From the NCBI RefSeq assembly GCF_000226975.2, contig NZ_CP019285.1, positions 1,984,001 through 2,048,000 on the forward strand: a DNA stretch of 64,000 nt, given 5' to 3'. Shown piece after piece: positions 6,534-49,641 of this stretch; within the stretch, counting starts at the first letter, position 1, and each line of letters opens with the position of its first letter. The position numbers and the translations under genes are program-made. The notes beneath the pieces are model-generated. The model made no database searches. It was not told the DNA's origin and worked only from the letters and a program-made list of their open reading frames with translations. The DNA is from Halobiforma lacisalsi AJ5. Its GTDB lineage: Archaea > Halobacteriota > Halobacteria > Halobacteriales > Natrialbaceae.

Positions 6534-6860
6534 TCAATCGTCGTTGTACGCGCCCTGCCGGGAGTCGTCGTTCGGCTCGTTGGCTCGCTCGTCCGGGGAG
6601 CCGGTTCCGGTTCCCGTTCCTGTTCCCGTTTCCGTGTCCGTCTCGGTCAGCGTCACCTCACCAGTTCCGTCGACGCGAACCTCGTACCCGTGATAGGCGA
6701 ACGAGACCGTCGTGTCCGCGTCCGACGACTCGACGAGCGTGTCGAGGGCGTCGGGATCGATCGTGCTGTACAGCGGCGGGTCGAGCGTCGCCGGCTCGAC
6801 GTCGTCCGCCTCGGCGATCTTCGTCACGACGAGCTGGCTCGGCGGCGTCCCCCTACTCAT
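6534..6860 (-). CDS. HalOD1 output-domain protein with Gly-Thr repeat tail
   Basis: A small protein (108 residues from the ATG at 6860; an in-frame GTG lies at 6878). The core TKIAEADDVEPATLDPPLY, then IDPDALDTL, then VSFAYHGYEVRV matches the haloarchaeal HalOD1 output domain, a stand-alone or kinase-linked domain of unknown biochemical role. The C-terminus ends in a (Thr-Gly)n run encoded by a 6-bp microsatellite at about 6596-6640, then a charged tail. A TTATCA box at 6884-6893 lies about 28 nt upstream, supporting the ATG. A second HalOD1 protein occurs at 53407-53730. Confidence 0.8.
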   Translation of the reverse strand: MSRGTPPSQLVVTKIAEADDVEPATLDPPLYSTIDPDALDTLVESSDADTTVSFAYHGYEVRVDGTGEVTLTETDTETGTGTGTGTGSPDERANEPNDDSRQGAYNDD

Positions 6861-6969
6861 ACTGACCAGTTCGAACACCTGATTGATAAGCGCGGTGGCA
6901 GTTTCAGACCGGTGAGAGTCGACAACCGACCCACCCCAAAAGCTATAACCTATGGCAACACAGTACTAG

Positions 6970-7047
6970 TCGGTGGGCTCCCCCACCCTATCCCCACCGA
7001 CGGCGCACGCGCCGTCACCCCCCTGTTCCCCCTCTCCCCACTTCCCC
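6970..7047. repeat. C-tract/hairpin element, G-quadruplex-prone on the minus strand
   Basis: A non-coding block. The left part folds on itself: GGTGGG (6972-6977) can pair with CCCACC (6982-6987) or with CCCCACCGA (6992-7000). GACGGCGC (6999-7006) pairs perfectly with GCGCCGTC (7009-7016) across a 2-nt loop. It is followed by four C tracts of 6, 5, 4 and 4 (7018-7023, 7028-7032, 7036-7039, 7044-7047) with 3-4 nt spacers, so the minus strand meets the simple four-tract G-quadruplex rule. Function is unknown. Confidence 0.6.
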
Positions 7048-7068
7048 ACGGGTCGACGTTGTGAGACG

Positions 7069-7151
7069 TATAGTAGCCACTGAAAGTCAATGCAACCCGA
7101 TCGCACGACAGCTGTACGATCGGTGTGTAAATCGTTTCAGTTGTTACTATA
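7069..7151. repeat. Nested palindromic element (MITE-like)
   Basis: An 83-bp AT-richer island. The ends are inverted repeats of 17 bp matching at 15 positions: TATAGTAGCCACTGAAA (7069-7085) and TTTCAGTTGTTACTATA (7135-7151). The centre holds a second inverted repeat: CCGATCGCAC (7097-7106), a 7-nt spacer, GTACGATCGG (7114-7123), with 9 of 10 positions paired. No open frame fills it. The structure suggests a small non-autonomous mobile or dispersed intergenic element; no target-site duplication is evident. Confidence 0.6.
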
Positions 7152-7288
7152 GCGACTGCGGTAGAACGCGATACACGGATCGAAAACGAGGCCGTCGCGG
7201 GCACCTCATACGGATTGCTGTCCCGACGGACCGGCGCACCCGCCGCCCGGGTCGGGGTTGCGCGGGAACTGACGAACAGTAACCCGTC

Positions 7289-7981
7289 TCAATCGAGCGT
7301 CAACTCGAGTTCGAGCAGCCCGAGATACGAGGGGGCGTTGCCGCCACTGGTCCGGAACTCCGTCGGCGTCGAGTCGACGTACTGGTAGAACTCCGGCTGG
7401 GTCGAGGGAACCATCATCGTGCCGTCTTCCCCGCGCAGGTACGCGGGCGAATCCGTCGCCTCGAGCCGGTCGGCGCGTTCCTGCCAGGCCTCGTCGTCGT
7501 AGAGGAAGATCCCGAACGAGAACCGTCCGCCGGCCAGCGCGTCCTCCTTGGTGTCGAACGCGTCGGCCTCGTCGACGCGGTACTCCTCGTCGGTCATCCA
7601 GGCCAGCGCCGACAGCCCCTGCGTACGCAGGAAGTAGAGGTCCCAGGACAGCGTCGCGTCGAAGATCGCCCAGGCGTTGCGCGGGCCGACCGCGTCGAGC
7701 TGGACGCTGAACGCGGGCCGGCCGCGCGAGCCCGTTGGCTCGTGGACGAACGTGGCGTCGTACGCGGGCACGCGGATGCCCCGGTCGTGGTAGACGACGC
7801 CGTTCGACGGCGTCTCGATATCGCTCCGGGCGGTCAGCCCCTCGACGAAGTCCAGGATCGGGATGCCGCCGGTGTCCTCGAGGCGTTCGAAGAACGAGGA
7901 GACGTGGTGGACCTCCGACCAGGGGCGGGGCCGTTCGCCGTCGTCGGGGCCGGGGCCGGGACCGGGTCCGGGTGCGCTCAT
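7289..7981 (-). CDS. Uncharacterised haloarchaeal protein with Gly-Pro N-terminal run
   Basis: A 230-residue soluble acidic protein. The start MSAPGPGPGPGPDDGERP contains a Gly-Pro run from a 6-bp microsatellite; the body begins at about residue 25 with WSEVHHVSSFFERLE and includes aromatic-rich segments (SWDLYFLRTQG, FSFGIFLYDDE, YLGLLELELTLD). I do not recognise a family or catalytic motif. The ATG at 7981 is chosen because further upstream the translation turns Arg-rich. It is divergent from rqcH across 302 bp in which I see no gene. Confidence 0.7.
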   Translation of the reverse strand: MSAPGPGPGPGPDDGERPRPWSEVHHVSSFFERLEDTGGIPILDFVEGLTARSDIETPSNGVVYHDRGIRVPAYDATFVHEPTGSRGRPAFSVQLDAVGPRNAWAIFDATLSWDLYFLRTQGLSALAWMTDEEYRVDEADAFDTKEDALAGGRFSFGIFLYDDEAWQERADRLEATDSPAYLRGEDGTMMVPSTQPEFYQYVDSTPTEFRTSGGNAPSYLGLLELELTLD

Positions 7982-49159: not shown

Positions 49160-49287
49160 GAACGTTCGTACGGGAAGCGAACGCAAAAGGGTTCGGCTCG
49201 GACCGCAGACGGTCTGCTGTCAGTCAGTCCCGGCGCACAGGGGACCCGTCTGCCGGGTGCGCCGGTAACCAGTTACAGCAGTCCGTC

Positions 49288-49641
49288 TCAGTTGACGATG
49301 ACGTCGGGTTCCTCTTCCGCCCGTTCCGTCTCCGATTCCTCGCCGCGGTACTTCCGGACGGCGACGCCGGCGGCGACGAGCACGGCCAGCGCAACGAGCG
49401 CGCCGATCGCCTTGCCGCCGCTGCCGCCCTCCTCGTCGGCCGCACCGCTCTCGTCGTCCTCGTCTTCGCGGTCGGTCTCGAGCGACGATCCGGCCTCGAG
49501 GTCAGTCTTCGTCCCCGTTTCCGATTCCTCGCCGCCACCGATTACTGCCTCGGCAAACGGGAGCGACTCGAGCGTTCGCGGCCCGAACTGTGTATCGCCG
49601 TCCAGGTGGAGTTCGATGAAGGTAAACTTCTTTTCTCCCAT
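49288..49641 (-). CDS. Small protein with one C-terminal membrane anchor
   Basis: 117 residues starting MGEKKFTFIELHLDGDTQFGP. A first domain of about 50 residues (THE core FIELHLDG...TLESLPFAEAVIGGG) precedes a long acidic linker and one helix AIGALVALAVLVAAGVAV followed by KYRGEE. The layout (head, acidic linker, C-terminal helix) suggests a surface or membrane-tethered protein; no family recognised. Confidence 0.65.
   Translation of the reverse strand: MGEKKFTFIELHLDGDTQFGPRTLESLPFAEAVIGGGEESETGTKTDLEAGSSLETDREDEDDESGAADEEGGSGGKAIGALVALAVLVAAGVAVRKYRGEESETERAEEEPDVIVN

Follow-up and report, generated by a model that had tools for sequence, protein, structure and literature searches.

The window analysed here, a 64,000-nucleotide stretch of the Halobiforma lacisalsi AJ5 genome, carries at positions 7069-7151 a palindrome that raises a simple question: is it a transposable unit and, if so, which enzyme moves it, or is it kept in place for the genes around it? 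A sequence-only reading had described a nested, gene-less palindrome, AT-richer than its surroundings, and had likened it to a MITE or a dispersed regulatory palindrome.

Structure and copies of the palindrome

The description itself was borne out by re-measurement, with limits that proved nearly exact. The outer 17 bases match their own reverse complement at 15 of 17 positions, and the inner arms pair at nine of ten. Self-complementarity across the 83 bp reaches 28 of 41 positions, the top value of the 64-kb window, and 50 random windows from a first-order Markov model reached a maximum of 27 (mean 25). The G+C content is 43.4%, against 65.8% in the 500 + 500 bp flank; only mechanical ORFs cross the palindrome, and the larger flanking ORFs leave it outside. 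The predicted folds are strong, both as single-stranded DNA (-14.9 kcal/mol, z -4.2) and as RNA (-33.3, z -6.5). The element proper has 79 bp, the outermost TA on each side being the target duplication (Table 1).

Table 1. Features of the palindromic element in window coordinates
Feature	Position	Strand	Basis
Target-duplication TA, left	7069-7070		Single TA at the G002 empty site
79-bp MITE	7071-7149	+	Missing from G002 at the same site; 7 other own-genome copies
Left arm, resembles 3' ends of the 1,055-bp IS630-family element	7071-7097	+	Family consensus arm compared with IS ends
Right arm, resembles IS630 ends	7123-7149	-	Family consensus arm compared with 5' and 3' ends
Inner hairpin, left side	7097-7106	+	9/10 pairing with 7114-7123; paired changes in a set of 72 copies
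Inner hairpin, right side	7114-7123	+	9/10 pairing with 7097-7106; paired changes in a set of 72 copies
Target-duplication TA, right	7150-7151		G002 empty-site comparison

The homologue search of haloarchaeal genomes proposed with the sequence-only reading revealed a multi-copy, dispersed element and not a single-copy feature. Eight copies were found in the H. lacisalsi genome (E 2.3e-13 or better, five further rows with E 2.5 or worse being left out), and their flanks differ, as in dispersed, unrelated sites. Matches occur in all five genomes of the genus, in 96 of the 121 genomes and 23 of the 29 genera of the family (E 1e-5) and, with another copy as query (L036, E 1e-8), in 116 of the 392 genomes of the order, which belong to families f1, f4, f5 and f7. 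Family f1 is read as Natrialbaceae, since one match (G120:C1:220755-220842) coincides in its coordinates with a match in NZ_CP082247.1 of Natrinema. Copy counts are bounded by the number scored, and one genome (G075) gave 217 first-look candidates without scoring. Among plasmids, 52 of 72,556 records have a match (187 places), and no copy was detected in 50,697 phage records. An apparent difference of one copy between pHH400 and its CBA1115 relative (10 and 9 matches, respectively) was discarded, as the copy concerned (W01:15465) is present in both.

Two neighbouring features were observed alongside. At about 6934-7040, upstream of the ORF at 6534-6878, the window has a stretch with two short hairpins that is essentially identical in genome G002, where the remaining flank is about 92% identical; the segment has no Rfam match and a minus-strand RNA fold with z -1.55. 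A further dispersed palindrome, about 78 bp long (ACGG...CCGT), occurs at 7210-7287 and 49207-49294, with 41 own-genome matches, some of which are the two strands of one place. Its copies have equal 3-base flanks in 14 of 28 cases, mostly TCA or TGA, as delimited by a crude end finder, and it seems to be a further MITE-like element, one that duplicates 3 bp (TNA). At locus L177 one of its copies sits within a MITE copy.

Empty sites and target preference

Genome G002 lacks the element at the corresponding site, with flanks that are 92% and 95% identical, and its joint reads GAAG-TA-GCGA where the window has GACG-TA[79 bp]TA-GCGA. Nine sites, this one included, were inspected overall: four gave a clean TA, two fitted in length, one disagreed and two were uninformative. 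An empty site with one TA was also seen for pHH400 398482 (compared with Natrinema zhouii), for W03:106383 (compared with W04) and, on the right flank only, for pHH400 233083 (compared with H. sinaiiensis). At W04:99635 and pHH400 9523 the length fits a TA duplication, but the relative has CA, and W03:46765 is 4 bp shorter than a TA duplication predicts. The W03:140560 site, rearranged in W04, was uninformative, and the comparison of G103 with G109, with 43 bp left against about 61 expected, was not used as evidence. For five further copies (W03:62855, W03:194612, W04:2232, W04:60114 and W04:185071) no match usable on both sides was available, and among the matches listed no empty site was evident for L090 and L042.

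The reconstructed target is CTAG at 27 of the 51 distinct sites with both ends intact, drawn from 90 copies, and among the four empty sites with a clean TA two read CTAG. This tetranucleotide makes up a small share of TA sites (1.4% in the window, 2.6% in the loci and 2.3% in the flanks near copies).

The candidate transposase and the ends it would recognise

The TA duplication led us to consider the IS630 family as the partner of the element. DDE_3 matches are present in 70 of the 121 family genomes. The ends of 30 IS630 loci, then of 20 more and then of 80 more, were examined, and among the 30 fetched loci the prevailing type was a 1,055-bp haloarchaeal IS630-family element (L125-L154, L219-L298). 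Its transposase is spread over two overlapping reading frames, 187 and 178 amino acids long in copy L136, with matches to the IS630 model NF033545 and to HTH_33 and DDE_3 of Pfam. L125 has overlapping frames of the same lengths, and L144 has frames of 187 and 214 amino acids; this split of the transposase over two frames suggests a programmed frameshift.

Like the short element, the 1,055-bp element duplicates TA and prefers CTAG, its reconstructed target being CTAG at 36 of 50 sites; unlike it, it encodes a transposase, and the interiors differ. Between the TAs its ends read TAGTAACCGTTAGAAC... and TAGTAGACRTTAGAAATAATTGCTCAC; in both elements the ends start with TAGTA and have similar bases to about position 27, the IS having RTTAGAA or ACTAGAA where the short element has ACTGAAA, ACTGCAA or ATTGAAA. 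We compared the family consensus arms with 67 5' ends and 70 3' ends recognised in 80 loci, the remainder being left out. Of the 22 positions that follow TAGTA, the left arm shares on average 12.6 with the 3' ends (best 16); shuffles average 5.65, and none of 5000 scored as high. The right arm shares 10.0 of 22 with the 5' ends (p 0.0046), with a best case of 15 (p 0.0002), and 11.4 of 22 with the 3' ends (p 0.0018); it is not clearly nearer either IS end, so that only the left arm can be clearly assigned one-to-one to an end.

The search for a parent transposase, also proposed with the sequence-only reading, found IS630 ends similar to the arms, and no autonomous element with identical ends. 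The core end ACTGMAA is on none of the 137 IS630 ends, and a pattern search of the 392 genomes gave no autonomous element with core ends of this kind, the pattern that accepts the core hitting only three ordinary IS630 ends in three genomes. By eye, no outward-facing end pairs 1-2 kb apart were seen in the H. lacisalsi genome (up to two mismatches) or in four genomes of the genus (exact matches). Two loci where such ends flank a transposase (L125 and L144) turned out to be copies of the short element split by an IS630 inserted at a TA (1429-2483 in L125 and about 933-1991 in L144); the target inside the copy in L125 is CTAG.

These observations, namely multiple copies, TA duplication, IS630-like ends and a common CTAG preference, lead us to conclude that 7071-7149 is very probably a gene-less MITE of IS630/Tc1-mariner type, moved in trans by an IS630-family transposase. 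Its 79 bp without a transposase gene, terminal inverted repeats, dispersed copies and TA duplication against an empty site are those of a MITE, in agreement with one branch of the sequence-only reading, and its TA duplication, CTAG preference and IS630-like ends (the left arm being the strongest) are those of the IS630/Tc1-mariner group. Action in trans is the most likely mode; we infer the partner, because no autonomous element with exactly the MITE ends was found. A transposase encoded elsewhere would bind both ends, excise the MITE and join it to a TA, preferably within CTAG, and the TA would become duplicated on insertion. This cut-and-paste route is proposed by likeness to ISY100, for which it was demonstrated in vitro (PMC2170065, in excerpt).

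Some evidence speaks against an IS630 partner, as G004 has at least 41 MITE matches and no DDE_3 match, and G017 has eight DDE_3 matches and no MITE match. This uncoupled presence, together with the core ACTGMAA lacking from all 137 IS630 ends, leaves a small chance that the MITE is moved by another TA-targeting transposase family, or by an unseen IS630 lineage, and that the likeness to the 1.06-kb IS630 is distant or convergent. Nevertheless, both arms score above shuffles against IS630 ends, and the CTAG target is common to the MITE and the 1.06-kb element, a preference that IS630 itself has according to the title of Tenzen and Ohtsubo (1991), cited in the excerpted text of PMC2170065.

The inner hairpin, related elements and significance

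A set of 72 copies (A2: 85 bases long and like the consensus at no fewer than 58 of 84 positions) was used to follow changes across the palindrome. In this set 94.7% of the pair cells are paired. Changes on both sides occur in 82 cells, compared with 24.8 in shuffles, a signal abolished by sliding the partners. The paired changes lie mainly at 12/73 and 15/70, within the ends, and at 31/55 and 38/48, within the inner stem; independent events are few, because subfamilies are inherited. Each of three end types, ACTGAAA, ACTGCAA and ATTGAAA (28, 15 and 13 copies, respectively), is matched on the opposite arm, and A2 copies from Haloarcula and Halomicrobium plasmids belong to the ATTGAAA type or come near it. 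Such joint change of the two arms would be expected of ends that a single protein has to recognise. The paired changes of the inner stem are unexplained by end recognition alone and not required by the IS630 model; template switching within the palindrome could be an alternative source of paired changes.

Variants of the MITE were also observed. L175 (pHH400, about 269352-269394) is shorter and lacks the inner hairpin, and its left end, TAGTAGCCGTTGGAAA, falls between the MITE and IS630 ends in sequence; L144, L177 and L185 are copies with an additional hairpin-like insert in the central loop.

The strong single-strand fold and the paired changes in the inner stem would also suit a HUH (Y1) transposase moving the repeat as a single-stranded hairpin, as with PATEs, IS200/IS605 or REP/RAYT elements. 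We consider this very improbable, since the insertions carry a TA duplication, and PATEs and IS605-type elements are described in the excerpted text of PMC3119063 as having neither terminal inverted repeats nor target duplication; both are present here, which rules out a PATE (IS200/IS605-derived). Least credible of all is a regulatory palindrome or transcript structure retained for neighbouring genes: the position outside the larger ORFs, the strong RNA fold and the retained paired changes would fit it, but the site is empty in G002 although the flanking DNA otherwise matches (92-95% identical), which leaves that branch of the sequence-only reading without support here, and Rfam gave nothing at gathering score in the window and nothing at E 1 within 6800-7350.

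As an IS630/Tc1-mariner-type MITE, the element can be placed among known systems. IS630 (Shigella sonnei) and ISY100 (Synechocystis) also duplicate TA, and IS630 prefers TA in CTAG according to the title of Tenzen and Ohtsubo (1991); both are bacterial and autonomous. The MITEs of Haloquadratum walsbyi, compared by their description, are likewise short and gene-less, with transposon-related ends and often target duplication (PMC3119063, in excerpt), and the term "IS630" is absent from the text of that paper. The SMRs of the same organism resemble the element in length (80-110 bp), terminal inverted repeats and many copies; as excerpted, PMC3119063 describes them without target duplications or related transposons, so the TA duplication and IS630-like ends rule out an SMR. 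Searches of the open-licence literature with the MITE motifs gave four papers, none of which deals with archaea by its title; those with motifs of the IS ends and the second repeat gave none with a haloarchaeal title among the 10 listed of 27, and topic searches gave PMC3119063 as the only close title among those listed. Within this literature the family appears to be undescribed, while the kind is already known.

A further reading, which we regard as unlikely, builds on the MITE assignment: the whole hairpin may be under selection, since the inner stem too shows paired changes, a cruciform or hairpin perhaps being needed for movement or tolerance, and CTAG avoidance or methylation could additionally answer IS630 and its MITEs, because both aim at a tetranucleotide that haloarchaea avoid and to which a conserved orphan methylase of theirs is directed.

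Overall, the analysis describes a widespread haloarchaeal MITE family whose ends and target are defined and which has a candidate transposase family; this makes trans-mobilisation in archaea directly testable. The rarity of CTAG in haloarchaeal chromosomes and the role of a conserved orphan methylase are called open in the excerpted text of PMC6471742, and the aim at CTAG common to the MITE and IS630 offers a concrete hypothesis for both.
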